Shown here in pieces: positions 4,701 through 60,449 of a stretch of DNA of 64,000 nucleotides. The notes beneath the pieces are model-generated. The model searched no databases. It worked only from the letters and a program-made list of their open reading frames with translations, and had not been told where the DNA came from. The position numbers and the translations under genes were made by a program. How positions within the stretch are numbered: position 1 is the first letter of the stretch; each line of letters begins with the position of its first letter. Where the stretch lies: positions 12,392,074-12,456,073 of the forward strand of contig NC_037595.1 of NCBI RefSeq assembly GCF_003073045.1. Reading direction: 5' to 3'. The stretch is from Pomacea canaliculata (Eukaryota; Mollusca; Gastropoda; Architaenioglossa; Ampullariidae).

Positions 4701-5340
4701 GGCCACCTTCATGTCGGTGCCTGACGGCAAGGAGGGGACCAGCGGCCTTCACCTCAACCACTCTCTGTGGACGGCGGCCGGTCAGAACGCCATGGTGGAC
4801 GACCAGAGGAAGGACGCCATCTCCGACCTCGCACTGCGTTGGAACGCCGGGCTTCTGAAGCACGCGCGGGCTTTGACAGCACTGTGTTGTCCCACCATCA
4901 ACTGTTACCGACGACTGCACCAAGTGGCCTGCCCCTCAGACAACACCTGGGCTGTGGAACATCGCACAGGTATGACCCGCTTCAAGGTCCGCAACAACGA
5001 CGTGTACCTGGAGAGTCGCCTGCCTTCCGCCGCCGCCAATCCTTACCTGGTCATCGCTGGTCACCTGGCAGCAGGAATGGCGGGACTGGAGGCCGCAGAA
5101 ATCGAGCTGCCACCGGAGATGGATACTGTAAATGCGCAGAAGCTTCCTACTTCTTTGGGAGAGGCTTTGGACTTCCTTGAGCAGGATGAGGTGATGGTGG
5201 AAACACTGGGCCGACGGTTTGTTTCGTATTTTCTGATTGCAAAGCACGACCTCGAGCTTGATCAATACAGTCTTGTTTCACCGGCCACAGAGGAGGAGAA
5301 ATTTAAACACGAGAGAGAAAAATACCTTGTCAGCCTGTAG
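1713..5340 (+). CDS. LGSN: Glutamine synthetase type I / lengsin-like protein, copy 1
   Basis: Three coding exons: 1713-1869, 3681-3970 and 4447-5340, with GT-AG introns and matching phases, giving 446 residues. Residues about 15-50 form the beta-grasp-like N-terminus (IPDVNGLPRGQVIPRRF, as in lengsin and bacterial GlnA). The rest is the GS catalytic barrel. Residues that match GlnA metal and substrate ligands are present: E141 and E143 (FEFEF), E195 and E202 (GQWELNF), H251 (GLHLNHS), R322 and R327 (EHRTGMTR), E338 and R340 (ESRLP). By family knowledge, such proteins are GS-I-fold enzymes or, in vertebrate lens, a non-enzymatic lengsin. The substrate here is unknown, though the retained ligands argue against a purely structural role. 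A likely AATAAA signal is at 5611-5616. Intron 1 holds a hAT-type element and a LINE 3' end. Confidence 0.88.
1965..2139. mobile_element. hAT-type non-autonomous element (175 bp), in intron 1 of copy 1
   Basis: The ends are inverted repeats (CAGGGCTTCTGCT at the left, its complement AGCAGAAGCCCTG at the right). The element is flanked by a perfect 8-bp target duplication TTATAAGC at 1957-1964 and 2140-2147. An 8-bp duplication and a CAGGG start are hallmarks of the hAT superfamily. No coding capacity. Confidence 0.85.
2490..3105 (+). mobile_element. LINE 3' fragment (CR1/L2-like clade)
   Basis: About 2640-2780 encodes a degraded version of the reverse-transcriptase C-terminus familiar from CR1/L2 LINEs: 'W-N-S-L-P' followed by 'H-L-P-T-I-E-S-F', then a 'K-T-H-L-F-R' motif. 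The 3' end reads gcgctttataaattcttc followed by ATC-rich repeats at 3040-3100, a common tail for such elements. It is 5'-truncated and has no intact frame. It sits in intron 1 of lengsin-like copy 1. Confidence 0.7.
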
Positions 5341-23478: not shown

Positions 23479-26400
23479 GTGTGTGTGTGTGTGTGTGTGT
23501 GTGATTGATGTGAGGGAGTGAGAATTTTGCCTATTAGTAGTGATATTTGTTTCCTAGCTAGACGACAGCCACAGATTCCAGACGTCCAGGGTGGGCAATT
23601 AATTTTCCCCCGCAGGAGAATTGGGATGTTTTAGAGGGCCGGACTAAGTTAACTCTTTTCCTTCTGTATATATTATGTGCCCGAGCTGATCCCACAGAAA
23701 GCATTCCTCTCGGGGGCTTCCCAGTCTGGTGTATGCCAAGTAGCTCTCAGTCATAATCAAACAACAAAACTGCGGCAGGTTGCGTTAATGACCTCTCCTT
23801 ATTTCTTGTACACACTGTCGTCTGCAATCTGTAGGAGTCTCCCACGAAGAAAGGTTTTTCTGTGCAGAACTCACATTATATTTCGAGAGGTCACGCAGCA
23901 TTTCAAACCTATTATCGTGGCAGGTTCATCGACATGCCGGTCCGACGACATATTCAAGATGAAAACTTCCCGCGGAAAGAAGTAAACAAATCCAAGTCTT
24001 TAACAAGAGTACGAGTCTTTTGATCCTGAGCAGCCAGGTGTAAAGGTAAGGGCTGACAAACACTCCTTACCAACATTGTTAGTTGTGCTAACTGCTCATA
24101 GCTCACCTGCAGGGAGAGTCGTGACGTCAGCAAATAATTTAACATTAAACGGTTCTTTCGCCCCGGGTTGCTCTCTGGGTGTTAATTTTCTTTCAAAGGA
24201 AATTCTTCTGAAACTTTTGTGAGTGATCGTCATAGTAGAATGCTGACGACTGATTAGAGAAGGTTTAGAACAGGAATCGAAGTGCAGAGCAGGTGTCAGG
24301 TCCCTGTGGCACGCGAAATAACTATTATTCCCATAATTCAGTTAATGCTGCTAGTGTCCATAGCTTGTACAGGCGGTTCACTAAACTTCTGTCTTTGATA
24401 TCACAGAGCACATGGTCATCGCGAGATGCAGAAATTCCAGAGGAAGGAATGCAGCTGTTAAAATGGTACACAAATTCTTGGAACGGTCAGTATTCTGTAG
24501 GCACATGCATGAGAGAAGGAATGAAGATGTAAAGCACTGTGCACATTGTAGACATGTTTGCAAGTCTGTTTCCCCTTCCCCTCCTGCACGCATGTTCACG
24601 TGTATTCTTGCTTGGCACACCATATTGTATAGTTTCCATCATATTTAAAGTAGCATACTTATTAAAGTCTAACAATTCTGTCATTCGTGTCTATATATAT
24701 ATTTTACTTTCAGATATGAAGAAAAATGAATTTCTACACAAGGTTCTCCTGAAGCTTGACCAAAGACAGCATTACTTTTTGTCAAGTATTTTAGCAGTGG
24801 GTATCTTGTATCACATTCTTGTGCTTTCTATAAATCCTCTTCATCATTATCCTTTAAAAATGGACTTCAATCGTTAATTGTTTTCTGTTCTTTTCTCAGA
24901 CCAACAGATGCGCGCGCACATACGTATAGGCGCCATTAGCCTGTGTAAATCAGTAAATGAATGTTAGTGATGAGTAGATATTTCTCTTGAACTAACTCAT
25001 CAACCTAAGAGACATTGTAGGTGTTGAAGAAAATACTGATGATATTGTGGAAATAACTATGACACCGTTAAGTCCCTCAGTGCACGTGCTTATCTCGTGC
25101 AGCACAAGCAGCACAAAGACTTCATCGTGCTTCTACCAGAGCACCTGTCGCTGAAGATTCTGTCATACCTGTCTCCTAGGAACTGGTCGTCGCCGGCAGG
25201 GTTGGTGTCTGTTTTCTCTATTGTTTTTATCTTTTTTAAATTCATGGTGAGAGATGCTATCAGTTCAAATTAACGTGACATAATGCCAATCAGATAATAC
25301 AGATAATTAAGTTTTCTAGATCATGTTGGGTAAGTGTCACTAAGTCCATAATCATGACACACTGTCTACAGCTCTTAACCTCTCTGTCATTTCACGCAGG
25401 TGTGCAAGTCTTGGCAGAAGTTGGCCAACCACAACAGCCTGTGGGAGGCCAAGTGCAGAGAGGTCAAGTTGAAAGTACCGATATCGGACGACCCCATCTG
25501 GAAGCGAGTGTTTCGGGACAACCTCAACCTCCATCTGAACTGGAACAATGGTACTTGCCGCATCACCGATTTCAGAGGCCACACGCAAAGGTGGGGCAGA
25601 CACATTAACCTCCTTCTTAACTAGGCAAACACGGACAAAGAGTTTAACCAAATTTAGCAAACTTTTTATATAATAACTGCCATGTTTAAACTTTTCTAGA
25701 TTTGTTCTCAAGTCCGCATGCACTTGTACACAAAAGATGAATAAAAAAGAAGCAAGCTAAAGAGATAAGAGTGCAGAGAATAAATAAGAAAAACAAATAA
25801 AGAAAAGTAGAGATGAGCGGTGAGATAAATGAAGAAAAAAAAAAGTTTTACGTAGTATATTTGTGTAGTCAAATATATTGTTATACCCGATGTTTCTTAA
25901 TCTGGTTTACATTTCCTGCTTTTAGGCTAGTTAATCGTCCGTTTTAATGGCTGGATGTGTTTTGTACATCATAGCGTGCCATTTCTAGCTGTTTTATGTT
26001 TCATTTTCCAGTGTTTTTTTTTCTGGTGTTATAGTGGGATATAAATGCTTAAAATTAAATTAAAATAAATCCTCCTCACTAAATTCAACGTTCACGACAA
26101 CTTCTTCACGTGTCAATAACAATGATGACAATGATGTCAATGACAATGATCAACTTTATTTGGTCCCAGTGGGCAATTTAAACATGGAATCATTATTACT
26201 CATTATTACATTATTGTTGCTCATTATTTACATATTGAAATTGTGGGGGCATTACCAGCGTGCTGACGGTGACCTTCGACAAATCCCGGATCGCCAGCGG
26301 CAGCGGCGACAAGACGATTCGGGTGTGGGACATCCAGACAGGACAGCTGCTGCACGTGCTCAGGGTCATACTAAGGGTGTCTGGTGTCTGCAGTTCTTCA

Positions 26401-28695
26401 CAAAACATCTTCTTGTCTCCGGATCTTTCGACTCCACTATAAAGGTGTGTAAATAAGTTTTTTTTTAATTCACAACAAAAACAAAACGAATCAACAACAA
26501 AGCTTTGAATTTTTTTCTGGAAACAGCGATGTCGATGCACGTGCAAACAACACCTATGACAATGTGTGCCATATCCTCCCTCTCCGTTCTCAGGCGTACT
26601 TCTAAGATTTATTAAAGCATGTTCCATGGTTTTGTGGCTTGACTGGACAGGTTTGGAACCTTCGAACTGGAAATACTTCACGCACGTTGCTAAGCCACTC
26701 GGGACCGGTGTGGGCACTGGCGCGACATGGCAATCTCCTGGCGTCTGTCTCACAGGATAGGACGGTAAAGGATGGATTCTAAACTCCTGTTCACACATCT
26801 TGTTTTCCTTTGTCTTATTTTCGCTAATTTTCTTTTTTGCATTTCTTTCTTCCATCTTTGTCTTCTGTCCAGTTGTTAGTCTTTCATCATCCCTTCATCC
26901 TAAATGCACAGTCTTTTTTTTTTTCCTGGTCTTACTTTTACTCCTTTGTTATTTTCTCCAGTTTTTCTTTTTGTTTGTTTTTGTTGTTGTTGTTGTTGTT
27001 GTTTTCTCGTTGTCAACTTTATCTTCCGCCCATACATCCCCTCTTCGTCCGTCATGTTGTTATCTTTGTTGTTTTGCCGTGCAGGCCAAGGTTTGGAACA
27101 TCAATCGCTGCCGGCTTTTACACACGTTGACTGGTCACAACGCCGCCATTTTCTCCGTTGACATGAACGAGTCCGGAAGCACGGTCATCACGGGGTCAGC
27201 GGATCGGGTGAGCATGCGCTCATACTACAGTTTAGCTCCGTTTGCGTGGCAATAAGACCCTTCACACCCATATACGTTCTCATAAATAGTAACGTCTGTC
27301 ATTCTTGCATAAGAAACGAAACAAAAATTCGTACATCCCGATAACGACTTCAAAGTACCTCTATAATCATCGCCATCATGATTATCGTCATCATCGTCAT
27401 TATCATAGTTAGTATTAAGATACGTTACATGAGCAAACTCTCAAATCCTGTGATCAGCTGTTAATATCTAACACAAAGCCTAAAACATGTCTGCTATTAA
27501 TTATTTGGTTTTTGCTTTTCTAAAACTCTTTGTCATACTGTGTTGAAAAAAATAAATCAAAATTACTGGAAGAAGTTTTGTGTCACGTGTTTTCTCTCTG
27601 ATGTCAGAGCGTGCGCTTGTGGTCGGTTGAGACTGGAAAATGCCAGAAGGTCATCTGGGTCAGCCCATCCACCTCAATAATGGCGCTCAGCTACAGCCAG
27701 GGCTATTTCGCGTGTTCCTATGGCAACACAATATGTCTCTATCGTGGCACGAAGCTGGTCAAGACTTTCAACGAGCACTACAAGCGGTCAGTGTCACATG
27801 CGCTTGCATGAAGAGAGGGAGAGAAAGGAATACTTTTTTTTCCATGTTTCGTTTCTCTATATCTCTTTCTTTTCACTCACTATTTCTCTTTACAGCTTTT
27901 AGCAATTTTGTTAAAAGAACTCGCGTTGAGATAACTGGCTTTAAATAATTCGCATGAGATAATTGGCTCAGAATAATACGCGTTACCTCCCCCCATGTGT
28001 GCTTGATGCAGTGTGGAGACATTGCAACTGAGAATCGTGGATGCAGAGACAGGAGAGGGCATGCTTGTCAGCGGCGGTCAAGATTCGATGGTCAAGTACT
28101 GGGATGTCTCCAAGTGAGTACAGATCTTAATCTGCTTTATTATTTTTTTTTCATAATTTCATACCTTCCTACATACTGGGCAGTGTTTTGACACCATCTA
28201 AAACCTTCTTTACTGTCGGCAAAGATATAAAAGGACAAGGTTGTAAAGGCGATGAAGAGACCAGAAAGAAATAGAAAAGGAAGCAAAAAATTAAGAATCA
28301 TGCAGGACGGTAAGGACAATTAGAAAATCGGCGACGAGGTCGATGTGTAACCTGATAGTGTTCGTCGATGTACAGCCAATTTTAATGTTTGTCATTGAAC
28401 AGCCAGTTCTAGTGATCTTCGATGCACAGCTAATAATGTTAATTATCGTAATTATCTTTTTACTACTAGTTGTAGTTTCGTTGTTTGATAACCATGTGTA
28501 ATGCTCGTCATTAACAATCGATTGTAGTGTTGGCCATCTGCACAGCAGGTTCCTTTCTCTCTGTCCGCCAGAGACGCCAGCATCCAGACCTTTTCAGGTC
28601 ACGCGGAGATGGTGAGCTGCATTCACTTTGATGAACTTAGAATCGCTAGTGGTTCCCACGATAACAAACTACGACTGTGGGATTTCAACATCTGA
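16964..28695 (+). CDS. F-box/WD40-repeat protein (FBXW family, seven WD blades)
   Basis: Exons supported by phase: 16964-17200, 21759-21929, 22067-22155, 22581-22736, 25081-25200, 25400-25590, 26259-26444, 26651-26764, 27085-27207, 27608-27786, 28012-28113, 28572-28695; roughly 600 residues. The helical N-terminus (VSIWLEQW, then QFQFLATVLQPSLHRDF) resembles the region before the F-box in FBXW2-type proteins. The F-box is LPEHLSLKILSYLSPR...VCKSWQKLA. Seven WD blades follow, with signature ends IRVW, IKVW, AKVW, VRLW, ICLY, VKYW and LRLW. By family knowledge it is a substrate receptor of an SCF (SKP1-CUL1-F-box) ubiquitin ligase; the target is unknown. The second intron begins with GC, not GT. 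One base seems to be missing in the F-box exon and one in the first WD exon. FBXW2-like or FBXW10-like are both possible; I could not settle the subfamily. Confidence 0.88.
18606..18650. repeat. TC/AC microsatellite
   Basis: A TC-rich run followed by about eight CA units. It lies in the long first intron of the F-box gene. Confidence 0.9.
19445..19479. repeat. CA microsatellite
   Basis: About 17 perfect CA units, in an intron of the F-box gene. Confidence 0.95.
19910..20275. repeat. T-poor cryptic repeat tract
   Basis: About 365 bases built almost only of A, C and G on the plus strand, with variants of 'agacaatctaaacc', 'caagcca' and 'aagtcacgt' recurring. One phrase (agacaatctaaacc, then a variant of 'aaagccacgt') occurs twice, about 115 bases apart. 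It looks like an eroded minisatellite. Confidence 0.6.
23435..23503. repeat. TG microsatellite
   Basis: About 34 TG units with one interruption, in an intron of the F-box gene. Confidence 0.95.
23588..23650 (+). mobile_element. hAT-like terminal fragment
   Basis: Starts CAGGGTGGGCAATTAATTTT and continues to 'agggccggacta'. It is the same terminus as the minus-strand copy at 10739-10809. The other end is not recognised. Confidence 0.5.
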
Positions 28696-33335: not shown

Positions 33336-35154
33336 CAGGCCCGTTCTTAGCCCCCGCGGGGCCCGAGGCAAAAGGGCATGTGCGGGGCCCTCACGCCACG
33401 ATCACACGGTTTTAGTTGGGATCTAAAGTCACTTTTTTCCTCAGGGATATCTCGTCTTTTATCATTGATAGCACGCTGCATACACATTACAACATAAGCC
33501 TACGATTAATTTATTTGTAACGTTCGTCAATAGGTTATGTAACCAACACGTCAAATGGCTACGTAGAGTGGGCTGTCGTACCAGAAATAACAGAGATTGA
33601 ATTCCGCACTGAAGTGTTTTATTCAGTTTTGCTCAGCGTCTGGCCTAACTTCTCTCTCTCTCCAATTCACAAAGAGGTCCCACACCACTGTCAGCTCTGC
33701 TATTTATTCTCCCTGCCCTCGAACATTCTAGCCCTTCCTCGCACAGACATTCTATTTCGTCGCAATAAAGACATTTTGAACATCGCTACATTGTTGAACA
33801 TCATTTCCTCCCTCGCGCAATGACAAGACATTTTTACTGTGAACATTGCTACATTGTTGAACATCATTTCCTCCCTCGCATAAGACATTTTACTTTGAAC
33901 ATTGCTACATTGTTGAACATCATTTCCTCCCTCGCACAAGGCATTCTACCTTTTCATTGCTGCCGTGCTGAACATTCTGGAATATAGATGCAATCTACAA
34001 CCCAAAGACATTATACTTCGTACACTACTAGAGTGCTACAGTTACAACGAAGGGAACCTACAGACAGGCTACAGTCTGCAGTCGTAGTTGAGGTTGAGTT
34101 GATGGGTTTTGCATCCGCCATTAAGTAAACACACTAACACACACACCGACACACGTACATGCTAAAGACATTCAGATTTAGTAACCAAATAACATAGCAA
34201 CACGTAACATACGGCATAATATACACATGTAAGTTTTCAACGCTAAAAAATATTTACAAGTGAACTTTCCTGGCCTTCATTAAAGCAAAATCATCAATCA
34301 GTTCACTGAAATCTAATTCCGAGAAACACTGTTCTCGATGGAGAGTATGGCCACAGGCCATGTTCCTCAGCCGATCTTGGCACATCGTTGACCGCAGGTA
34401 AGTTTTAATTAATTTCAGTTCGAGAAACTTCGTTCTCCGGAAGCTACTGTCACAGGTATTGTGAGGGCAATTCTTAAGGCAATCCATAAATTCGGAAAAT
34501 CGAATGATCGTCCTTTAATGGAGAGGAAAGTCAACATCTTACGAAGGTCTCCATGCACAGAATCTGGAAAAAAACATACTTCAATACGTCCATTTCCCTC
34601 GGCAAGCATGTATCCATCGACATCTCGGCTTTCTCCATGTGTTAACACATCTTCCAAATTCTTCCCACATGACTTCGCACCGACTTTTGGCACTCCTTGA
34701 AGTTGTAGATAATCCAAAAATTTTGATTATGATTCCTTAATTGTTCAATCTTCTTTGAAGAGACGCAATTGCTGTATCCACTATCATGTTGAAGCAGTTG
34801 ATGCGGAATCCTCCTGGGCATTTCTTCCTCCTACATCTTCTCCTTCGTATTGTTCGTAATCAAACATTCTCCTTCTCTTTCTAATTCGTGTAGCTTTAAA
34901 AACTGGTTCTGTAGCCAAATCCTCTGCAATTCTCTTGCATTAATCAGATAGCTTGAAAATCCATTTTGACGATAATCTGTCAGCCATGTGCAAATGCCCT
35001 CCAAGCCATTTAGTGCATCTGAAAAATCCGCAGTCAGATACGGCTGACTACACTTCCATATGCCTAGTTACCATATCAATCAAAAGCGCGGGGCCCCTTG
35101 AAGCGCGGGGCCCTAGGCAGATGCCTCGTCCGCCTGCCCCTAAGCACGGCCCTG
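33336..35154 (-). mobile_element. hAT transposon remnant (1.8 kb) with transposase C-terminus
   Basis: The ends are inverted repeats (CAGGCCCGTTCTTAG at the left; CAGGGCCGTGCTTAG when the right end is read inward), flanked by a perfect 8-bp duplication TATGTAGG at 33328-33335 and 35155-35162. The minus strand at about 34254-34717 encodes the hAT C-terminal dimerisation region: LTIPVTVASGERSFS, then (after one frame change) LKLIKTYLRSTM. Only part of the transposase remains. The element contains a three-unit minisatellite at 33775-33945. It inserted about 180 bases upstream of the copy-2 start region. Confidence 0.88.
33775..33945. repeat. Minisatellite inside the hAT element, ~60-bp unit, 3 copies
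   Basis: The phrase 'gctacattgttgaacatc' followed by 'atttcctccctcgca' occurs three times with small length differences, so this is a short tandem array internal to the transposon. Confidence 0.85.
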
Positions 35155-35369
35155 TATGTAGGCGCGCCAGTGGCATGAGATCTCATCCTTCTCTCGGTGA
35201 GCCTATTTTAGCAACGATTTCCACTCAGGATCATTTACAAAAAGAAAGAATTACAGCACGTGTTTCCACGCCCTACCTGCATGTGTATCACCGTATTTCG
35301 CTGTTTATTGCAAAATCGTCTGCGAGTGTAGAAAATGTCAGCGGTAGCAGACGACGCTGCAGAATTGAC

Positions 35370-38300
35370 ATGGACAGTTTTGATTATGTCCACATGGTGA
35401 TTCCTGATGTGAACGGCCTGCCGCGAGGGCAAGTCATCCCCAGACGGTTTGTCCGCCAGAAACTGAAAACGGGTGTTGACCTCTACTACGGTAAGTCGCA
35501 TGAAAGATAAAGTTATCCAACAACACCATGCACTCTAGAGTGGCATTTGGTAAACGCTTGTGTGTAGGTGACTGGAGTACAGCTAGAATACTTCTAATTG
35601 TACAGAATACCTTTAACAGCTTATTTCGTACGAGTATTCGCGTGCTGGCGACGTTTAGAGACGGTACGAGATGTCAGGAACACGAACAAGCATGCGAACG
35701 CGCCGTCATACACTAAGGTTGTTGTCAATGTTGCATTATGCATGCATTAGAGACCACAAGAGCTACTTCCCATCAGTGCCAGAATAAACAGCTGCTCAGT
35801 GTTGCGCCATATTGTTCACTGTGATTGTGTCAGGCCTGGCGAGATGGGGTTGGGGGGAGTCTGGTGTACCTGGGCCCGCGGCTGTGACAGGGGCCCGGCC
35901 TTGGTCAGTGTATTGTTTTCTTTTTCTTTTAAATAAATATCTGGGGAAAGAATATCATAGCATTACACGTGGAGAAGTCGCGTTTCAAGTCTGCAATGTA
36001 CTGTTGGCAGTGGTAATGTACTATTCCCAGGGGTAGTGGAATAGAGAAGTGGGTTGGCACGGCAATGGGAGTGTGGAGAGAGGGGTAGTCAGCACTGTCG
36101 TGTCATCAGCGACATCCTGTTCACCCCACAATGATGTCGGAAAGCCGCTAGACACCGATTAACTATCGCTTAAGACCAGTCTAGAACAAGGGTGGGTAAC
36201 CTTTTTTTCCCCCGCCAAGGGCCATAAGGATATTTGTAACATCATTTGAAGAACAAACCAAATTATCAACTTGAAAGTTTTCCCTGCTATATTTCATCAA
36301 GCTGTAATGCTGTCACTTGGCACTGACTGAATGTCACTGAGCTACCGCAACACAGATGGGCAGCCAACAAGAGGCATGCCTATCTGTCCTATCATCGTTA
36401 CTTTATGCTCTAGTTCCACGGTTCACAACCGGTGGTACGCGTACGGCAAGAGTTATGATGGGTAGTCAGCGACCTATATGTACTTTAAATAAGTACTTTT
36501 ATGTGCGAACTTACACACGAGGAGTACCCACGGATATACTTTCACCCTTTGAGGTTACAGTCGCGAAAAAGGTTGAGATTCTCTGCTCTAGTTGAGTCCC
36601 CCGTGCGGTTGCCTGACAAGTGCATAGTATGTATCGGAAGAGGAGTTGGTCGTTGAACTTGAAGACTTACAAACAATTCATAATGCTGATTTCCGAGATT
36701 CATCGCTAACACCCTTAGAATTGTTAAACAGCCTGAACTGTTCACAAATTTAAATGTAATCCTTATAATCTTTTGCACATTTCACTTACCGTCGCTCAAG
36801 CGGAACGTTTGCTGAGGATTCATGGCCGAGTGAAGAATGTGTGTCAGCCCACAATGTGTCAAGATCGGGTGAACAGGTTAGGGTGCTGGCAGTGTACAGG
36901 CTCGGCTCACCAGGCCCGAGGCGCATTATCTCTTAATAACCAATTTCAAATATTCTGTCAATAGAGCATAACAACAACCTGACTGTTCCAACTATATGCA
37001 AACAAACGCAAACTTAGATAATAAAAATAAATAAAAAGTACAATTTGACAAAAGTTTCGTTTTATTTTAAAGAGAACGGCTACAATTCTGTAGACTAATT
37101 TTAAGAAATTTTTATATGTTTGTATGAAAAAAGGTTTGACTTACAAGCAAACAGATATTATTCATGGTCTTGTTGAGAGTCTGATTTCCCCTATTTGTTT
37201 AAAGGTGTACTAATGATGGGACCCAACTCGGAATACACTATGAAAATAGAAGAATACGTAACAATGGAGAACCGGAACTGGAAGCCTGACCTTTCAACTT
37301 TGATAGCTACGCCCTGGTGCGACAGTGGCTCCCGCCGCACAGCTTCCGTTCTCTGTGATCTTTTGAAAAGGGACGGCACTCCTGATGGGCTGTCCACCCG
37401 GGGTATAGTGCAGCAGTTACTTGGAAAATTACGAGACAATTTTGGACTCACACTTAAAGTTGCCTTCGAGTTTGAATTCTTTGTCATGAAGGAGGTAAGC
37501 ATCCAATAATAAGTGTATGTGAAAAGAGTAGTTGAAATATGCAAATAAGTTCTTCTGATGGCAGTATTTTTTGTAGCTGTCGCTATCAAAAGGAGCATTT
37601 GATTTTCTTCCTACTGTTGTTGTTTAGCGACATTGTCGAAATACTTACAACAACATAAAATCTAACTATCGAGAATCAGTGCTTGACCAGTTAAAATAAG
37701 ACATGAATAAATTAAAAATGACAAATAGAGATGAGAGAATTTCAATATTTGTCAGCTTTCAAACTCATTATTTTGCATTTATTACATTATGCTTTGAATT
37801 ATTTCCCTTTAAGGCTTTTGATCGTTGGTTAAAATTATCATCTTCATTACTGATTCAAATTACTACACTGTAATAATTTGTTTGAAATTATTGTTCATCA
37901 AGATTTATAATAATGAAAAGGATTTAAAAGGAGCAGAGACAGGTCGTTTCCGTCTACTATAAGTTTTTAGCAGATATATAAGTCCTGCAGTTTACTGTGT
38001 GGCCATGACGATAAATTACACATATTGGTGTAAGAAAATGGCTAAGAAATGTGTCAATAAACACTCAAAGTTGTACTGAAGACTTTCTGAATAACATTCT
38101 CTAGAATTAAGTGCAGTGAAATGTATATATACACATAAATCGTGAGTGCATATATTTAAGTGGATCTTTTATTTTGATTGTTTTTTTTTCGTGTACTTAT
38201 ACAAAATATCAGTTATGAAGAACTAGAAAACAGGAAATACTTAACAAATAGCTCGAAAATCGTAATCCATTTGTGCGAGAAAAAAATCAGTAGAACGATA

Positions 38301-39295
38301 TAAGCTGTTGCTGTAGTTACTGGCAATAGGCAAAAACCATTGAAAGTGTATCAAGTAAATATATCGTGTTTGACATACTGATTCTGCTTGCTCGTTTTTA
38401 GGACACTTTAGAACCGCTCGGAGGAGACAGCTGTCAGTTTTTTGACCTTCGCAGAACGGAGGGTAACATCGACATGTTCTACGACCTGTGCGAGACGCTG
38501 GAGAAGGCGGGGCTGCACGTGATGTCCTTTTCCTCAGAGTTTTACGCCGGCCAATGGGAGCTCAACTTCGACCCTCAGGATGGCATCAAAGCCGCCGACA
38601 TGGCGTTTCACGTGAAGAACGCCGTCAAGAGCTTCTTCAAGCGGCGCGGCTACACGGCCACCTTCATGTCGGTGCCTGATGATAGTCTGGGGCGCAGCGG
38701 CCTTCACTTCAACCACTCTCTGTGGACGGCGGCCGGCCAGAACGCCATGGTGGACGACCAGAGGAAGGACGCCATCTCCGACCTCGCACTGCGTTGGAAC
38801 GCAGGCATCCTGAAGCACGCGCGCGCCCTGACAGCGCTGTGTTGTCCCACCATCAACTGCTACCGACGCCTGCACCGAGTGGCCTGCCCTTCCAAAAACA
38901 CCTGGGCGGTGGAACATCGTACAGGTATGACCCGCTTCAGGGTGTCTGATAACAACGTCTTCATTGAAAATCGCCTGCCATCCTCCGCTGCCAATCCTTA
39001 CCTGGTCATCGCTGGTCATCTGGCAGCAGGAATGGCGGGACTGGAGGCCGCGGAAATCGAACTGCCACCAGAAATGGATCTCGAACATGCGCAGAAACTG
39101 CCGGTTTCGCTGGAAGAGGCTTTGGACGTCTTTGAGAATGACGAAGTAATGTTGGAGGCGTTTGGTCAGCGGTTTGTGTCGTGTTTTGTCACTGGAAAGT
39201 GGGACGGTGAGCTGACGGAATACAACCTTCTCTGGACAGCCCCAGAAGAGAAAATAATTAAGTTCGAGAGAAAGAAGTACCTCGAAAGTTTGTAG
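35370..39295 (+). CDS. LGSN: Glutamine synthetase type I / lengsin-like protein, copy 2 (N-terminus shortened)
   Basis: Exons 35370-35490, 37205-37494 and 38402-39295, with phases identical to the other copies, giving 434 residues from the ATG at 35370. The ATG used by the other copies is at 35335 here, but one base is missing shortly after it ('gcagaattgac' where copies 3 and 4 have 'ggagaaatcga'), so translation from 35335 stops within about 20 codons. A GTG-to-ATG change at the next suitable codon offers a start (MDSFDYVHMVIPDVNGLPRG), losing 11 residues. GS ligands are kept: FEFEF, GQWELNF, GLHFNHS, EHRTGMTR, ENRLP. The expected promoter region is cut about 180 bases upstream by the hAT insertion ending at 35154. 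It may be an active gene with a new start, or a gene in decay. Confidence 0.82.
36192..36330 (+). mobile_element. hAT-like terminal fragment
   Basis: Starts near 'ggtgggtaacctttttttcc' followed by 'cgccaagggccata', a common hAT end. The opposite end and a target duplication are not recognised. Confidence 0.45.
36416..36585. mobile_element. hAT-type non-autonomous element (170 bp), intron 1 of copy 2
   Basis: Ends CCACGGTTCACAACC at the left and, read inward, CAGAGAATCTCAACC at the right. A perfect 8-bp target duplication CTCTAGTT is at 36408-36415 and 36586-36593. 'GGTACGCGTAC' lies just inside the left end and 'GAGTACCC' at 36521-36528, a familiar hAT MITE arrangement. Confidence 0.8.
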
Positions 39296-40998: not shown

Positions 40999-43115
40999 CT
41001 ACAGGCTAACAAGATATTTCTTTCTCTCGTATTTAATTTTCTCCTCCTCTGTGTCTGGGGAGAGAAGACTATACTGATGAAGTTCATGGTCGCGTTTTCC
41101 AATCAGAAGATGCGACACAAACCGTCGACCCAACGCTTCCACCATCACTGTATCCTTCTCAAGGCAGTCCAAGGCTTCTCCCAGTGACGTCGGCAACTTT
41201 TGTGCATGCTCGATATCCATTTCCGGTGGCAGTTCCATTTCTGTAGCCTCCAGTCCTGCCATTCCTGCTGCCAGGTGACCAGCGATGGCCAGGTAAGGAT
41301 TAGCTGCACCGGAAGGCAGGCGACTCTCCAGGTACACGTTGTTGTTGCTGATCTTAAAGCGGTTCATACCTGTGCGATGCTCCACAGCCCAGGTGGTTTC
41401 GGAGGGGCAGGCCACTTGGTGCAGGCGTCGGTAGCAGTTGATGGTGGGACAACACAGCGCTGTCAGGGCCCGCGCGTGCTTCAGAAGTCCTGCGTTCCAA
41501 CGCAGAGCGAGGTCGGAGATGGCGTCTTTCCTCTGGTCGTCCACCATGGCGTTCTGACCGGCCGCCGTCCACAACGAGTGATTGAGGTGAAGGCCGCTGC
41601 GCCCTAGCTTGTCGTCAGGCACCGACATGAAGGTGGCCGTGTAGCCGCGCCGCTTGAAGAAGCTCTTGACGGCGTTCTTCACGTGGAACGCCATGTCGGC
41701 GGCTTTGATGCCCTCTATGGGGTCGAAGTTGAGCTCCCACTGCCCGGCGTAATACTCAGAGGTAATAGATGTCACGTGCAGACCCGCCTTCTCCAGCGTC
41801 TCGCACAGGTCGTACACAAGATCACGATGACCTTCTGTTCTGCGAATATCGTAAACCTGGAAGCTGTCTCCTCCAAGAGGTTCTAGAGTATCCTAAAAAA
41901 TATACACAACGAAATTCTATTTAACAAATAATTATTTAACAATTAACAGTGTGTTATATTTGTTCGAAATTATCATATTTGACAGACTGTCATCAAGCAA
42001 ACATTTATAAATGTTATTTACTTCTTTAAAGACGATGAATTCAAACTCGAAAGCAACTTTAATCGTGAGTCCGAATTTGTCCCTTAGCTTGCCAAGAAGT
42101 TGTTGCAGTATGCCACGGGTGGACAACCCATCAGGAGTACCGTCCCTTTTCAGAAGATCGCAGAGAACGAAAGCTGTGCGGCGGGAACCCGAGTCGCACC
42201 AGGGCGTGGCTATCAAAGTTGAAAGGTCAGGCTTCCAGGTTCGGTTCTCAAGCGTTCTGTACTCTTCTATTTTGGTGCTGAACTCCGAGTTAGGTCCAAG
42301 CATTAATATGTCTGGAAAGAAACGAAATTACATTGAGTCATTTAGCCATCCCGAAGTCACGATAATATGGCCAGTAACGGTAGACTAGGTAAATATACTT
42401 CAAAAGGATTAGTTTTACTAATAGCAACTGCTTTAAAGACGCATTGGTATTAATCCTTCTTTATCCAAGAGCAGATTGCTGGAGATATTAAAGGAAGTTT
42501 TATCCAACTGAAGATGAAAGAAGCACTGTAAATTAAATTTTTTGGTAGGTGCTAATAGAGGAAGATCAAACATATTGATGTTTTGGTTAAAAGCTTTAGT
42601 GAGTCGCTGGACTCTGAGGTGACGAATTCAAGGGGGAAAAAAATTGAAATGTCTAATTTGTCAGAGTTTTTTTTTTTATTTCCTCGCTATACCTAAATCA
42701 ACACAAAAATTAAACCCAAATTTATCACTGATCTTAGCTGAAATTAATTTTATTGAAACAAACTCTTTCATTCTCTAAGAAAAAAAGAAAAAAAAACCAA
42801 ACACGTTCAAGCCTATTCTATGGGAGACAACCAGGGTCAATCATCGGTGGAGGATAAGCTCCCTTGGGCGGATATTCGTGTCAGTTTGGCTACTCATGGC
42901 CACAGTCTACCGCCTTAACATACAACATCGATCATGTTTTAATTTGATTTCAACTTACTGTAGGCGAGGTCGACACCTTCTGTTAGCTTCTGGCGGACGA
43001 AGCGTCTGGGAATAACTGCTCCTCGCGGCAGCCCGTTCACATCAGGAATTACCATGTGGACATAATCAAAGCTGTCCACCTCGATTTCTCCTGCGTCGTC
43101 TGCTACCGCTGACAT
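40999..43115 (-). CDS. LGSN: Glutamine synthetase type I / lengsin-like protein, copy 3
   Basis: Exons (minus): 43115-42959, 42311-42022, 41892-40999; 157, 290 and 894 bases, 446 residues. Start MSAVADDAGEIEVDSFDYVH, then PDVNGLPRGAVIPRRF. The glutamine after PRG seen in copies 1, 2 and 4 is alanine here. GS ligands are all present: FEFEF, GQWELNF, GLHLNHS, EHRTGMNR, ESRLP. The last 65 or so residues are identical to copy 4, and over the 272 residues from MYDLCETLE to the stop I count 14 differences, so this is the closest pair in the cluster. The intron-2 donor is gaa|gtaaat rather than gag|gtaagt. It is convergent with copy 2. Confidence 0.9.
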
Positions 43116-45488: not shown

Positions 45489-48182
45489 CTACAGGCTAAC
45501 AAGATATTTCTTTCTCTCGTATTTAATTTTCTCCTCCTCTGTGTCTGGGGAAAGAAGACTATACTGATGAAGTTCATGGTCGCGTTTTCCAATCAGAAGA
45601 TGCGACACAAACCGTCGACCCAACGCTTCCACCATCACTGTATCCTTCTCAAGGCAGTCCAAGGCTTCTCCCAGTGACGTCGGCAACTTTTGTGCATGCT
45701 CGACATCCATTTCCGGTGGCAGTTCGATTTCCGCGGCCTCCAGTCCTGCCATTCCTGCTGCCAGGTGACCAGCGATGGCCAGGTAAGGATTAGCTGCACC
45801 GGAAGGCAGGCGACTCTCCAGGTACACGTTGTTGTTGCTGACCTTAAAGCGGGTCATACCTGTGCGATGCTCCACAGCCCAGGTGGTTTCGGAGGGGCAG
45901 GTCACTCGGTTCAGTCGTCGGTAACAGTTGATGGTGGGACAACACAGTGCTGTCAGAGCCCGCGCGTGCTTCAGGATGCCGGCGTTCCAACGTAGAGCGA
46001 GGTCGGAGATGGCGTCCTTCCTCTGGTCGTCCACCATGGCGTTCTGACCGGCCGCCGTCCACAGAGAGTGGTTGAGGTGAAGGCCGCTGCGCCCTAGCTT
46101 GCCATCAGGCACCGACATGAAGGTGGCCGTGTAGCCGCGCCTCTTGAAGAAGCCCTTAACGGCGTTCTTCACGTGGAACGCCATGTCGGCGGCTTTGATG
46201 CCTTCTATGGGGTCGAAGTTGAGCTCCCATTGGCCGGCGAAAAACTCAGAGGTAATAGATGTCACGTACAGGCCAGCCTTCTCCAGCGTCTCGCACAGGT
46301 CGTACAAAAGATCACGATGACCTTCTGTTCTGCGAATATCCTCAAATTGGAAGCTGTCTCCTCCAAGAGGTTCTAGAGTATCCTAAAAAAAAATATACAC
46401 AACGAAATTGTATTTAACAAATAATTATTTAACGATTAACAGTGAATTATATTTTTTCTAAGTTAGCTTGTTTGACAGACATCCATCTTCAAAGCGCAAA
46501 CATTTAAAAATGTTAATTACTTCTTTCATGACGATGAATTCAAACTCGAAAGCAACTTTAATCGTGAGTCCGAATTTGTCCCTTAGCTCGCGAAGAAGTT
46601 GTTGCACTATGCCACGGGTGGACAACCCATCAGGAGTACCGTCCCTTTTCAGAAGATCGCAAAGAACGAAAGCTGTGCGTCGGGAACCCGAGTCGCACCA
46701 TGGCGTGGCTATCAAAGATGAAAGGTCAGGCTTCCACATCCGATTCTCAAGGGTTCTGTACTCTTCTATTTTTGTGCTGTACTCCGAGTTAGGCCCAAGC
46801 ATTAATACATCTGGAATGAAACAAAATTACATTGAGTCATTTAGCCATCCCGAAGTCAGGATAATGTGGCCAGTAACGGTAGACTAAGTAAATATAGTTC
46901 AAAAGGATTAGTTTTACTAATAGCAACTGCTTTAAAGACGCCTTGGTATTAATCATCCTTTATCCAAGAGCAGATTGCTGAGATATTTAAGCAAGTTTTC
47001 TCCTACTAAAGACGATAGAAGCGTTTTCATGTAGGGGCTGTAGTAGATGGAGGACGAACAAACATTTGTTGTTGTTGTTGTTGTAGTTATACAGAAAGTG
47101 CTTCCACCTTTCGCACTGTGGGGAGGGGGTAAGGGAGTTTCGGAGCTTTGGAGAGGGAAAATAGCCCACTTGCAAAAATTGATGTTTTGGTTAAAAGCTT
47201 TAGTGAGTCGCTGCACTTTGGGGTGACGAATTCAAGGGGAAAAAAATTGAATGTTTTTGAAATTCATTGTTATAAATAACAACACAATCATTAAACCCAA
47301 ATTTATGACAGTTTTTAGCTGAAATTAATTTTATTCAAACAAACTCTTTCATTCTCTACTTTTTTTTTTAATATATATAAACACGGTCAAACATAGTCCA
47401 TGGGAGACAACCAACGTCAAATCATCGGTGGAGGATAGGCTCCCTTGGGCGATATATTCGTGTCAGTTGTACTCATGGCAATAGTCTACCGCAGTGATGC
47501 CCAACCTTTTTCGGCCTGCGGGCCATATCCATTTCGGACAGCCGTGTCGCGGGCCATATCCATTTCGGACAGCCGTGTCGCGGGCCACTTCACCGCAAAA
47601 ATACAAAAAGGGAAAAAAAATTAGAGCAGATACCATTTTTTATTATAAACAAGTTGTACTTACCATTAATTATGTAGTAATTAGTGGGATATTTGAAGTT
47701 GTTTTCGCGAAACCAACTTCTGAATCTCCGGCCTCATCGTAGAGACATCAAGTCGGAGAACTGAATAGAAATGTTCGTCCATCGAAAAAAAAGATTGGGA
47801 AACGCCCCTACGTGGGGATAAATACTTCTTCTTCCCTTTTTTTTCGTTTTTTTAGGTCTTCTTTTATTACTAACATGCCGATTTCCTGCACTGTGGGCAG
47901 AAGTTTCGCGGGCCGGATGGCACCGCGTCGCGGGCCGGATATGGCCCGCGGGCCGTAGGTTGTGCATCCCTGGTCTACCGCTTTAACATACTACATCGAT
48001 CATGGTTTAATTTGATGCAACTTACTGTAGGGGAGCTCGACACCTGCTTCTAGCTTCTGGCGGACAAACCGTCTGGGGATGACTTGTCCTCGAGGCAGCC
48101 CGTTCACATCAGGAATTACCAAGTGGACATAATCAAAACTGTCCACGTCGATTTCTCCTGCGTCGTCTGCTACCGCTGACAT
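45489..48182 (-). CDS. LGSN: Glutamine synthetase type I / lengsin-like protein, copy 4
   Basis: Exons (minus): 48182-48026, 46810-46521, 46382-45489; 157, 290 and 894 bases, 446 residues. Start MSAVADDAGEIDVDSFDYVH, then PDVNGLPRGQVIPRRF. GS ligands present: FEFEF, GQWELNF, GLHLNHS, EHRTGMTR, ESRLP. Intron 1 is longer than in copy 3 because of a hAT-type element (47492-47972) and an extra stretch of about 130 bases near 47030-47165. It is a tandem duplicate of copy 3 in the same orientation. Confidence 0.9.
47492..47972. mobile_element. hAT-type non-autonomous element (481 bp), intron 1 of copy 4
   Basis: Ends CAGTGATGCCCAACCT at the left and, read inward, CAGGGATGCACAACCT at the right, each followed by a 'GCGGGCCATAT' stretch. 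A perfect 8-bp duplication GTCTACCG is at 47484-47491 and 47973-47980. Copy 3 has one uninterrupted 'gtctaccg' at 42905-42912, which is the empty site. Confidence 0.92.
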
Positions 48183-54540: not shown

Positions 54541-57500
54541 TTAGCGTTGCCCTGCGGTTTTCGTTCCCTTGATATCAAGTAAATTCTTCTTCTTGCTGAT
54601 GATTTCCGGTGCACTTCCACCCAGCTTTGCGCTGTCGCCTTTCTTTTGCCTTCTGCCTGGCTTCCTGGAAGTGCTTTGAACCCCATCCATCGGTTCCTGT
54701 TCGCAAAGGAAACCCTTGCACTTCGTAACGGTAGAATACTGAGCCAGGTCAGCGTAGTCATCATCCGCGACTGTGTCTCGGTCGTCGGTTGCAGATACGG
54801 TCAGCGGGGGCTGGGCACCACGTAGGGCACCGTCCAAGTCCTCCCCGCAAGCAACGATGCTCGTCACTTCTTTGGGAACCTGGTGCCCAGGAGTGTAGCA
54901 CTCCTTTTTGGCGAACAGTTGCCGCAATCTTTTCTTCACATCACTGACTCCGTGTCTGCGCTTCGTCCGCGGAGTCTGTGATTCGCTGGGTGAAGTGAAG
55001 GGCGGGGAAGGTGCATGGCCCAGATTGTACAAAGAAGACTCCCTGGAGGGCCACCTCGGTGCTCCGGTCGAATCGTCTAGCTGTGTGTTAGCGAAACCGG
55101 TGAGGCAAGCCGGTTCCTCCTCACCCCGAAGTGTAGACGCGATGTGCGATGCCCCTGGTGACGAAATAAATGAGGAAAATTTTACATCGTGGATGGGGTT
55201 GAGGAATCCACTGTCCTGTCCTTCGAAGCGGATGGACTCCTGGAGACGCAACTTGTCGGTGTTTTGGTAGTCAACCCTCTCAAGGTTCAGCTCTTGGTAG
55301 ATGGGTTCATAGTCATGCGCCAGAATTTCTTTCACGAGTTCGCTGCAGTCTCCCGCGCTGTTTTCTTCAACAATATTGTTTTCGTACATGTTGGGGTCGC
55401 TTGTGCACACATCGAACTCGGACGTGAAAGAGTCGTCGTCTGTAGTAAACTCCACGTCGCCTGCGAAAGCGTAGTTATGGAAGATGTTGGCATATACCTC
55501 AACAGCTTCATCTTCTGTCGTCGTCTTCGGTGCTGCTGCTGCTTCTGCTATTGCTGCGGCTGATGATGATGATGGTGTTGCAGCATCCGAGGCTGAGCCG
55601 TCTTCTATTGTCGAGTGTTGCCACGTCATCCTCTGCTGCTGTGGCGACAGAGTTATTTTTTTGCCATCCACGAGCACATCGTCGGTGCTGCTGTCCGTTG
55701 GTGACGTCACCGTGTTACCGGAGACGACAGGGATGCAATAACCGTAGTCGTCAAGCGAAGTACTGGAAGGCACTGTCGCACGGGATCGAGCCTTGCCTCG
55801 GCTTTTATCTTGATGTCTTCTACACACACACACAATCAACAATGAAGCCCACTACAGAAAAACTATTCACCGACATTAACAGTTAATAAGAAATTCCTTG
55901 TATTAATCATAATATTGGGTGGCATCACAGTGACATCACCTTTGTCTACATACCTTGCAAAGATTTCATTGTTTTACGTATTAACAGATCATACTCCTCC
56001 AAAACAGCCACCACCACCCACACCACAGCCACTATATCACTATTTCTATCGCCACATCTACCACTTCATCATCATCTTCATCATGTGAAGGCCTCACCTG
56101 CAAACGATGTAGAGAAGAACTGCAGCTAGCACTACCACCAAGATGGCACCCACTACAGCTCCGACAATCAGATATATTGTGCTGAGGGAGTCTTAAACAA
56201 ACAAAAAAACAAACAAAAAATGGTACAAACTTTACACCAGTCTATCTGCGTTTTCGTCTGCGTTAGTTCTTATCGGTTTGTCTGTTTTCTCATTTGTATT
56301 TCTTCTTACTCTTTATGCCCTAAAAGAGTGATGCATAATGGTTTAACTCCAATTAATTATGTAACCAAGGAACTATCAGACCAGTAATATGAGGTCTGTG
56401 TCAGTCCTAACATTTTCGTTAGTGCTGTTCCAGACCTTTGGACCTGAGTGCGTCTGATGCTGCGGGAGTCGGGAAGCTGCTGTTGCCACCGTCGTCAGCA
56501 GACGAAGGCTTGTGATCTGTGATGTTGCCGTCGACTGCTGATGAGTTCTGCCACGGATTCATATCTTCTCCTGTCGCTGATAAAAGTGATTTCATGAGAG
56601 CAGAGCTTGTGAACATTTCCCTGACTACGTGCTCGAAAGGGGGAGAAAAATTCTGAAAAACCTCGAATAACAGCCAAGAAATAAAAAAAAAAAAAAAGGA
56701 TTTTTCTATACGAGTGTAATATGACAATATATAATATATGTAATCTGAGTGTAATATGAGTGTAATAGGATGATAAATGGAAGTGATTAACAGGGAACTT
56801 GAAGGGAGAAATAAAAATGAAATCAAGCGAGAAGGAGAAGTAAGACAGAGAAAGAGAAAGAGAAGAAAAAGAAAAATTATGGTATTGTGGCACAGACAAG
56901 AGAGAGATGGAGAAAAAAAAAATTACGGTCTCGACAAGAGATAGATGTTAACATCATGAAGAGAAGAGAGGGGAAACCATGGTCTGATGTATGAAATAAT
57001 CCCTCACTTCAGGACGAACTCACAGGTTAATAAAGAAAATTAAATAAACAATCAAATAAACAAGATAATAAGAAAGACCAGATTTAAAGATTTTAACCGA
57101 TGTCGTATTCAGACTTATCAGTTAGTCATCTTGCCCAAAAGTGTAAAATAATTCTTACAAGAACTGTCACTAGTGGACGAGCAGGTCAAATGAAAACTTT
57201 TGGTATAGTCTTCCACTGAAATTACAGAACGCAACATGTTAGAAATAATTCATTGTACATTTTGTAAAATTTGTTGTAAAATAATCAATCAAACAAACAA
57301 ACAGACACACATGCGAGCGCTCACACACGTACACACGATCGGTCATGTATATAGACACACATACGTACACATACGTATACATTAACATGCACAAATGATG
57401 AACTAAGTTACTTTTATGGAAATAAAATGCAGAAATAATTCCATTATTCCATTTCTATTATTTTTTTATTTTCTCGAAATATTTCAGTTCTTGTTCTGCT

Positions 57501-60449
57501 GTGATTAATCTATATTACATTCTGGTTTATATGGCATTGCAACTGTTAAAATGTTTGGTGGCTTCATCAGGTTCTACCCAGGGTGGGCATGGTCTGTACA
57601 GTAGTTGTGGGTCAGTGGGTAGACCAAGGGTCGAGGGTCTGATAACCTACCTTCAAACCCTATCCAGAGCAGGCTGGGAGCCCCGGCATTCTCCACTCTA
57701 AGGTGTATAGTAACAGGGGTCAACAACCCAGACATTCGTTTCTTTGCCAACACCTCCGTCCGGTTATGAAACGGGCTGAACACAACAACGGACTTTTTTG
57801 AGTCTTCAATCCGAACATACCAGTTGCGAGACCTGGTGGTTGAAAATAATTCGAAAAGGTTATAAAATTTAGAAATTGTGATGACCTTTTGTATATACAA
57901 CTGCTTTCTTAGCGGAAACATATTATTTCAATCACATTTACAAGTGAGTCAGTCAAAGACTTCAGAATGACACGGTCCAGTGAAGTCTGGTTTACACTTA
58001 CTTTGTTCCGTTAATGAAGGCATACTGGAATAGAGAGATTGTATTGTTTTGCCCCACTGGTGACCACATGTTGCACGTGGTTGTACGGGACAGGCCTGAG
58101 TCCTGCTCACTGCCATCTGACTTGGTGACAAGGATGGAGGCGCCTTGTGTCTCCGAGAGACTCTGGAAATCCATGCGAGTGTCTAGAATGGTTGACTCTG
58201 GTTACAGACGAAGAACATCTCGTTAATATTTTCACTGAGGAACGACTGAGCGACTGGTTTCGTCGCTCGCATCGGGCATTCGAGTGTTTGTCGAACCTGT
58301 TTGACTATGAGCATGTCTGTGAGAGTGAAACCCATGGCAACCGATTGCACCACGTGACAAACATAACCTTTAGGATCTGTAGTCGAGAGATAAAGGCGCT
58401 CGACTGTGGAGCAGAAGGGTCGTTAGATGAAAACCTCCCCTTGCTCCCTCCGCAGAAACTGGTACCCGATTTATCAGGGTAAAGGCGGGGTAAGAAGATG
58501 GTGGATTTCCACCCTTCACTTACATTCACTGTCCCTCCAGCGACTACAGGACTCCTTACTCTGCATCATATTTTTTTATAAACTTATCGCAGAATTACAA
58601 ATGGATTCAGACTCACTTGGAATGCAGAAATACTGGATGGTGGACATCAACGATTGGTCTGAATCGAATGCAGGACTTCTGCAATTCGAAGAATTCGCTT
58701 GAACGACAGGGACTCGGAACTCGCAGGAGCTCTCTATCAGGCAGGCATAAGCCAGATCCATGAGGTGGTCGTCGGAGACGTCCTCGTAGCAGAACCGGAA
58801 GTAGCTGCGCACGCAGCAGGTGCTTTGAGCAGCACAGCTGAACTGGTAACTACAGAAGGAGAAAACTGCAGAACGACGAAAACCATTTTTGGCCTGAGAC
58901 AAGGCGATGACTGAGGGCGGACCTTCATTGGGACAACGCAGATGATGGTTGGAGCATGAGGTCAGGTCGATCCTGGAACACTTGTCTGACTCTTGGGTCA
59001 TGTAAATGTCTGCAACTGTTCCAGCAAAACTGAGTGAACCCCTGACCTGAACTGGTGGAGTGCTTATTCACTGAACCTAAAGACTTAACGTGAATCCAAA
59101 TTAAACTCTTGTAAAATTATAATGCAATATCATCTCATTCAAATTTTAAATACAACCATCATCTAGAAAGACAAGCATAGCTTAGGTACCTCATGAAATA
59201 ATTCATTTTCTTTGTCAAGACAAATGTTATCAAAGTAGTGTTACATAGTACATATTTACTTATCAACTGCTAGTTTGCATGACAGTTCTAAAATATATTT
59301 TAATTTTTGGTGCAGTGAACTTTTAAGTTGACCTACGATTAACAGATGGTTATTCTCCTTGTCTTCAAGAAAGCAGCAGGTAGAAAGTATCATTACAAAC
59401 AATGTCAAGTGACTGAGTTAAAGTTTGAACATTTAAAATAACTACTCACAAAATAAATTACTTTGCAATTATTTCTAGAACTCGGTCAAAATTTCTGAAC
59501 AATACGTATTTACAGCACATCATTCTACTCTTTAGTTGCACCCTTAGATGGAAGCCTTTCTCTCTTTTCGTGATAAGTAAGTGAAAATGCAAACGAATTA
59601 CATACAAGAAGTAATTGAGAATAGTATTTTAGATAAAAGACTTTTAGGAAAAATACTCATTGACACCCAATCTTTCTCTCGCTCTCGCTCACACACATAC
59701 TTACATATATACATATGCGTGCACACACACATACACTCAGACAGGACATGTCTATATGGTGATTGTGACACACCCAAGTAACTTGTGACAAAAACAAAAT
59801 AACAAGCGATCAGGATAGGAGTAAGCGATTGACAAAGTCCGGGAGAGGAAGGACGCGAAATAATAAAGAATATTTACATGTTTACCAGAGTCCAGCTCAG
59901 GCCTGATCTGCTTAAAAACTGTTGCTAGCGCTTTACTCAACAAAATCAGCTTTGCTGATGTCTTTTAATTATTTTTTTTCGGAAATATTACGAAGACAAT
60001 GGCGCAGCAGTACGATCATAAATTCCGCTAAATAACACAGCGGTTAGGAGGCAGGGAACAAAGGATGTGTAGAGTTCAGACACATACCACATACACTCAC
60101 CATTACAATGACACATCATCTTTACAAGATCACACGGGGGAAAAAAAATCAAAATCAAATGAAATATGAATGTACGTATACAAGGACAGACAAACACAGG
60201 GTGGGCACCCACGCACGCCATCAGAGCAGAGAGGTGGGCGCTAGAGAGAGAGAGAAAGGGAGTAAAAATAACATATTAAATAATTTCTGGGTTGGTACAA
60301 TCTGTTGCGGCCCTATGCTCCCCGAGCAGTAACAAGGAATAACAATCTGTCGAGTGACAGACATCAAGCAATCAACACCTACCTGTTGGTGTGAACAACA
60401 CCAGGACAGCAAACACGAGCACGGCAGCCATCTTGAACAAAGCAGACAT
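54541..60449 (-). CDS. Single-pass receptor-like protein: lectin-like and CUB-like ectodomain, long tyrosine-rich tail
   Basis: Exons (minus): 60449-60383 (signal peptide MSALFKMAAVLVFAVLVLFT), 59009-58617, 58403 to about 58198, 58197-58002, 57832-57651, 56570-56436, 56191-56098, 55819-54541; about 850 residues. The 59009 exon is cysteine-rich and ends 'SSCEFRV...QYFCIP', like a diverged SUEL/galactose-lectin domain. Exons 58197 and 57832 look like a CUB domain (CNMW, FQYAF, LLWIGFEG). A Ser/Thr/Asn-rich stalk follows, then the membrane segment YLIVGAVVGAILVVVLAAVL with basic stop-transfer RRHQDKSRGK. The tail is about 425 residues, with motifs VYANI, MYENN, YEPIYQEL, DYQNT, DYADL and QYSTV, a Ser/Ala run and a basic patch KKRLRQLFAKK. 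No kinase domain. Phases agree at every junction except between 58403 and 58197, where one base seems to be missing. The family is not recognised. Confidence 0.8.

Follow-up and report, generated by a model that had tools for sequence, protein, structure and literature searches.

The DNA analyzed here (the window; 64,000 nucleotides, C6:12392074-12456073, where C6 is the Pomacea canaliculata contig NC_037595.1) carries at window positions 54541-60449, on the minus strand, a predicted gene that we call the window gene. Its sequence suggests a genuine gene encoding a receptor of the cell surface, and we lean, without great confidence, toward a SUEL-CUB family member that crosses the membrane once and whose tail would serve as a docking site for SH2 proteins. 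The gene starts with an ATG at 60449 and stops at 54541-54543, the extent given in the original prediction, and its seven exons, all bounded by GT-AG and consistent in phase (1,1,2,1,1,2), encode a predicted protein of 797 amino acids. They are listed here in order of translation; paralogs A, B and C are relatives in the same genome, described below.

Exon 1, 60383-60449, minus strand: start codon and signal peptide MSALFKMAAVLVFAVLVLFTPT; phase 1 out; donor rank 2 of 423.
Exon 2, 58617-59051, minus strand: cysteine-rich, divergent SUEL-type domain (putative), residues 23-167; weak acceptor, rank 125 of 373.
Exon 3, 58002-58197, minus strand: first half of the putative CUB-like domain; phase 1 in, 2 out, the same as the first CUB exon of paralog A.
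Exon 4, 57651-57832, minus strand: second half of the putative CUB-like domain, with PSLLWIGFE at its C-terminal end; phase 2 in, 1 out, the same as in paralog A.
Exon 5, 56436-56576, minus strand: stem with three N-glycosylation sequons; weak donor G/gtctgg, rank 34 of 423.
Exon 6, 56098-56191, minus strand: membrane helix DSLSTIYLIVGAVVGAILVVVLAAVLLYIVCR; phase 1 in, 2 out, a pattern shared with A, B and C.
Exon 7, 54541-55819, minus strand: cytoplasmic tail of 425 residues, closed by the stop codon; its acceptor ranks 93 of 373.

Read from its N-terminus, the protein consists of a signal peptide (residues 1-22), a 12-cysteine domain (23-167), a second domain (168-293), a stem, a helix and the tail, with both signal peptide and helix assigned by eye. 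According to the gene model it would be a type I single-pass membrane protein, and its ectodomain contains seven N-glycosylation sequons. The consistent seven-exon model thus bears out the receptor anatomy first proposed for this DNA. In the whole protein, no Pfam family, whether enzymatic or not, passes its cut-off; below the cut-offs there are four matches, all of them weak and positioned at the membrane helix, and none is SUEL or CUB. Two weak Pfam matches of protein pieces were chance-like, and the one match of a PDB sequence search (E 1.2) was taken as chance. A scan each of the viral and prokaryote collections gave no relative of the protein.

Scored by a codon use trained on the glutamine-synthetase exons of the window, the true frame outscores the other two forward frames in all seven exons and every other frame of the six in five of them, and exon 7 sits in a stop-free frame of 436 codons. 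Splice sites were ranked with generic matrices. Five of the six donors fall within the top 9 of 423 GTs (ranks 1, 2, 3, 7, 9 and 34), and the weak donor of exon 5 is comparable to the G/gtctcc of paralog A. The acceptors are weaker than the donors (ranks 21, 24, 31, 44, 93 and 125 among 373 AGs), and the poor ranks at exons 2 and 7 count against the gene as modeled. No missed exons were listed, but the acceptor threshold of that listing would also drop five of the model's own six acceptors, and it therefore says little.

Relatives in the same genome

Animal relatives were sought in the window's own genome (440,159,624 bases in 24 contigs), and the family size given here is a lower bound. Searching it with the SUEL profile PF02140 returned eight matches, five of them over the cut-off, and two of the eight lie in genes built on the same plan (paralogs A and B). 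Four matches came back when the exon 2 protein was searched against it, namely exon 2 itself, L019 (E 0.036), C6:7012719 (E 0.10) and L021 (E 0.34). The third of these was followed up as paralog C because its cysteines fit; L019, which has four stops inside, and L021 were examined and not used.

Paralog A, C6:20813902 onward, plus strand: PF02140 match with E 0.15, under the cut-off.
Paralog B, C6:31115319 downward: PF02140 match with E 2.5e-5, over the cut-off.
Paralog C, C6:7012719: found by the exon 2 protein search.

Paralog A has a signal peptide, a SUEL exon, two CUB exons, a stem, a membrane helix and a tail, and its six corresponding boundaries have phases identical to those of the window gene (1,1,2,1,1,2), its sites having been picked by eye and its stem exon with phase in mind. 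In paralog B we find a signal peptide, a SUEL exon, a one-exon CUB and a membrane exon (phase 1 in, 2 out); no tail was identified within the stretch read. Paralog C runs from a signal peptide through SUEL, two CUB-position exons and a helix to three tail exons ending in a stop, all consistent in phase in a model whose stem exon was not located; it differs from the window gene in that SUEL is split over two exons and the CUB-position intron has phase 0. A signal-peptide exon able to end in phase 1 is also present in A, B and C, and the small-residue stretch GAVVG of the window gene's membrane exon may be compared with GGV in all three. Against PDB-derived profiles, hhalign matched A and B to both SUEL (probability 87 and 94) and CUB (64 and 97). 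We propose that these genes represent a SUEL-CUB-transmembrane family in this genome, with a common order of parts and, in the window gene and A, common intron phases.

Between the signal-peptide and SUEL exons of A lies an acidic, serine-rich open frame (C6:20815121, plus strand) with a furin-like RRRKRR, a possible extra exon.

Other SUEL genes were kept apart from this family. Gene D (L011, C6:20836348-20839477, plus strand), about 20 kb downstream of A, combines SUEL (E 3e-6, custom profile) with a membrane helix; it has no CUB match, the tail frame that was read contains a single tyrosine, and the gene was left out of the family count. A tyrosine tail is therefore not universal among the SUEL membrane proteins of this genome. 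The remaining SUEL loci, at C3, C10 and C6 6.64-6.67 Mb (30 kb for each) and at C6 6.68 Mb (10 kb), showed no CUB match better than E 1 and for that reason were not counted.

The outer domains

SUEL domains are built on an eight-cysteine framework. Exon 2 has 12 cysteines, and the choice of which eight form the framework was made by eye. Its relationship to paralog C is supported by a Smith-Waterman score of 120, which none of 2000 cysteine-fixed shuffles reached (mean 46.7); 10 of the 12 cysteines align with cysteines of C, and a CC doublet is common to both. Since C was chosen because it resembled the domain's second half, the comparison of the second halves (0 of 5000 shuffles) is biased, but in the first half, which played no part in finding C, only 52 of 5000 cysteine-fixed shuffles reach the score. 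Exon 2 and B are compared at 56 of 2000 shuffles, and among the SUEL regions of the paralogs the counts are 218 of 2000 for C and A, 20 of 2000 for C and B, and 0 of 2000 for A and B. A profile of exon 2 and C scored 25.7 against ten SUEL domains of the PDB, above a shuffle maximum of 19.75 (0 of 120 column shuffles; hhalign probability 24%), and adding A and B raised this to 32.7 (0 of 120; 70%). C alone gave 64 and 75% against SUEL profiles.

Several results weigh against calling exon 2 a SUEL domain. Taken alone it has no Pfam match, it is not among the eight PF02140 matches in the genome, and its score against SUEL was reached by 59 of 200 shuffles, a second test with two profiles being marginal (6 of 150). 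Its similarity to A is not significant (677 of 2000), and C is only its third-best match, below the stop-filled L019. Exon 2 matches the SUEL profile only jointly with C. On the strength of homology through paralog C, we nevertheless conclude that exon 2 probably encodes a SUEL-type domain. An AlphaFold model of exon 2 alone, made without an alignment (mean predicted local distance difference test score, pLDDT, 33), was no evidence and was discarded.

Whether such a domain would bind sugar is another matter. The motifs YGR, DPC and KYL belong to the SUEL sugar site. Each occurs in 10 of 10 PDB SUEL domains (from six chains, chosen from alignments listing 13 and 14 sequences) and each is absent from exon 2, A, B and C; B has FYGY. 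Sugar binding is thus not to be assumed, and the "lectin-like" label of the original prediction is supported as to fold family but should not be taken to mean sugar binding.

The loss of these motifs could also fit a guidance or adhesion co-receptor resembling EVA-1, in which the SUEL-type domain would act in partnership with a second receptor and the tail would be no more than a scaffold. The enrichment of tyrosines in the tail (see below) argues against this, as does the single SUEL domain of our model compared with two in EVA-1, and it seems to us quite improbable. In its favor, apart from the missing sugar motifs, EVA-1 is itself a SUEL-domain co-receptor of SAX-3/Robo, as stated in an excerpt of PMC3269628.

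The second domain (residues 168-293, exons 3 and 4) had been labeled CUB-like, and no sequence match upheld the label. Pfam finds no CUB (PF00431) in the window protein or its pieces. Against CUB profiles the domain does not rise above shuffles (60 of 200; 17 and 45 of 150), nor does it when joined with C (39 and 63 of 120), and a CUB hidden Markov model that finds A and B, both of which were in its training set, has no match in the CUB-position exons of the window gene or C. In pairwise comparison the second domain resembles that of C (4 of 2000 shuffles), a similarity carried by PSLLWIGFE, which in C reads PEFLWIGFE and closes the matching exon; the comparisons with A (391 of 2000) and B (952 of 2000), and those of C with A (1507 of 2000) and B (799 of 2000), are not significant. 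The profile results and the non-significant comparison with A tell against a CUB fold here. We infer a CUB-like domain from its place after SUEL, its two-exon form and the intron phases in common with paralog A.

The cytoplasmic tail

The tail of the window protein is 425 residues long and has 12 tyrosines, among which are the following sites.

Tail YxN 1, 55486-55494, minus strand: Y481, in EVYANI.
Tail YxN 2, 55378-55386, minus strand: Y517, in NMYENN.
Tail YxN 3, 55261-55269, minus strand: Y556, in VDYQNT.
Acid-flanked pair YADLAQYSTV following DDD, 54727-54756, minus strand: Y727 and Y733.

The YxN motif is the established binding form for the GRB2 SH2 domain, and an acidic residue upstream of the tyrosine is usual in many kinase substrates. 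Tested on motifs that had already been picked from this same sequence, the three YxN sites of the original prediction exceed the 0.37 expected (reached by 0.4% of 20000 shuffles, P 0.004). The several Yxx[LIV] sites likewise hold up, with five found and 1.8 expected (2.3% of shuffles), and a tyrosine with an acidic residue at most four residues upstream occurs in 11 of 12 cases with 5.8 expected (0.2% of shuffles, P 0.002). A loose acid-Y-x-x-L pattern is seen twice (DDDYADL and EPIYQEL; 2.9% of shuffles). The tail has no strict immunoreceptor tyrosine-based activation motif (ITAM; Yxx[LI]x6-12Yxx[LI]), no strict inhibitory counterpart (ITIM; [SILV]xYxx[LIV]) and no NPxY.

The Yxx[LIV] sites could have a different use. 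In an endocytic or sorting receptor they would bind the clathrin adaptor AP-2 for ligand uptake or trafficking, and YxN would be incidental. Five such sites (P 0.023) agree with this idea, but the acid-flanked tyrosines are kinase-substrate-like, NPxY, as noted, is lacking, and a single site would suffice for sorting, with no need for so long a tail. We consider an endocytic role unlikely.

The tails of the paralogs bear on the docking reading in both directions. That of C (L022-L023, C6:7017681-7018079) has 208 residues and 10 tyrosines, nine of them acid-flanked where 5.32 are expected (P 0.018), and contains EEGYATL, ADGSYSHL and a PPTLPPK stretch. The first two of these are close to the hemITAM (half-ITAM) form of vertebrate Dectin-1 and CLEC-2. 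In paralog A the tail was read as two separate pieces, never joined; the first has two tyrosines, and the second has three, with one YxN (3.1%) and one Yxx[LIV] (38%), in VQYDNP and DTDYTSI. An acid-flanked tyrosine tail is thus present in the window gene and C and is at most hinted at in A. The tail of A (C6:20819440-20819879, plus strand) shifts frame between its pieces; a small intron may have been missed, the assembly may be wrong there, or the frameshift may be real.

On the other side, the YxN triple is confined to the window gene, with one YxN each in the tails of A and C; the tail of C is at chance for both YxN (1 against 0.48 expected, 39%) and Yxx[LIV] (2 against 1.32, 39%); acid-flanked tyrosines in the second piece of A are at chance (2 of 3, 66%); and the window tail has no other match below E 0.9 in the genome, two weaker ones (E 0.98 and 4.2) having been set aside. 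The SH2-docking claim thus stands as far as the excess of YxN and acid-flanked tyrosines goes, and fails to extend its YxN triple to the two paralog tails read. One could argue that the motifs arose mainly by chance in a fast-drifting, disordered tail, and that the receptor signals in some other manner or is a decoy: the YxN number is not kept in A and C, and YxN was tested after it had been picked. The enrichment of acid-flanked tyrosines in two genes, the window gene and C, speaks against such an explanation, which we regard as very improbable.

Elsewhere the window has no match to the window protein better than E 0.4. It contains at least four glutamine-synthetase-type genes in both orientations, all matching Pfam Gln-synt_C (E 2e-63 to 3e-61), and some other frames:

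4414-5337, plus strand: glutamine-synthetase-type gene.
38402-39292, plus strand: glutamine-synthetase-type gene.
41002-41892, minus strand: glutamine-synthetase-type gene.
45492-46382, minus strand: glutamine-synthetase-type gene.
1710-2087 and 34944-35507: by eye like N-terminal parts of glutamine synthetase; Pfam is blank for both.
26064-26450, plus strand: open frame in which Pfam sees a WD40 repeat at E 2.6e-5, its 25 bits falling slightly short of the cut-off of 27.

Proposed working and known systems

If the window gene does encode an SH2-docking receptor, its outer SUEL-type and CUB-like domains would recognize a ligand. Because the customary sugar motifs are missing, simple rhamnose or galactose is a less likely partner than a protein or a complex glycan. 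Ligand contact would cluster the receptors, and a kinase of the Src type could then phosphorylate the acid-flanked tail tyrosines. The phosphorylated YxN sites would hold adaptors with GRB2-type SH2 domains, leading to Ras/ERK output, and YEPI, YQEL and YADL might hold other SH2 proteins. Every step beyond the anatomy, from ligand and phosphorylation to adaptors and the cell type involved, is inferred.

More tentatively, the SUEL-CUB receptors may form a small family in gastropods that diverges fast and in which the tails have been turned into SH2 docking platforms, with YxN in one member and hemITAM-like EEGYATL/DGSYSHL in another. It is possible, though doubtful, that such a family would amount to a molluscan immunoreceptor class parallel to the vertebrate immunoglobulin- and C-type-lectin ITAM receptors, with a lectin fold stripped of its sugar site as its base. 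A docking tail that works would open a testable route into how gastropod cells recognize what meets their surface, and would be an instance in which tyrosine-based receptors were put together on a head of unrelated type.

CUB receptors such as neuropilin resemble the window protein in having CUB outside and a single pass, but the window gene itself has no sequence match to CUB, and matches to CUB profiles are confined to paralogs A and B. Vertebrate receptors of the ITAM, ITIM and hemITAM types (Dectin-1, CLEC-2, SIRP-alpha) likewise dock SH2 proteins through tail tyrosines, whereas strict ITAM and ITIM are missing from the window tail. The original prediction recognized no described family. 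Related kinds have been described in PMC3269628 (SUEL membrane receptors) and PMC13027682 (oyster hemITAM lectins), which weakens that remark. The literature searched turned up no SUEL-CUB-transmembrane receptor, which is no proof of its being unpublished. Three SUEL genes were counted in Aplysia (PMC9334734, in part), and in bdelloid rotifers SUEL occurs within large membrane proteins (PMC8878817, in part).

The described SUEL receptors, latrophilin, EVA-1/C21orf63 and PKD1-like proteins (PMC3269628, excerpt), share with the window protein a SUEL-type ligand-binding part in a membrane protein. The window protein differs in its one divergent 12-cysteine domain devoid of YGR, DPC and KYL, in the CUB-like domain and extended tyrosine-bearing tail that come after it, and in the lack of a seven-transmembrane region. 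The nearest parallel in the literature consulted is oyster CgCLec-TM1, a transmembrane C-type lectin with a hemITAM tail that associates with the SH2 kinase Syk and acts through Syk and ERK (PMC13027682, excerpt). Like the window protein, CgCLec-TM1 and CgCLec-HTM are lectin-type receptors of a mollusk that span the membrane and have tyrosine-based tails. There a C-type lectin fold is combined with hemITAM, and in the window protein a SUEL-type domain with YxN. If the docking tail works as proposed, a snail receptor family joining a SUEL-type head to direct SH2 signaling would stand beside the C-type lectins of the oyster.

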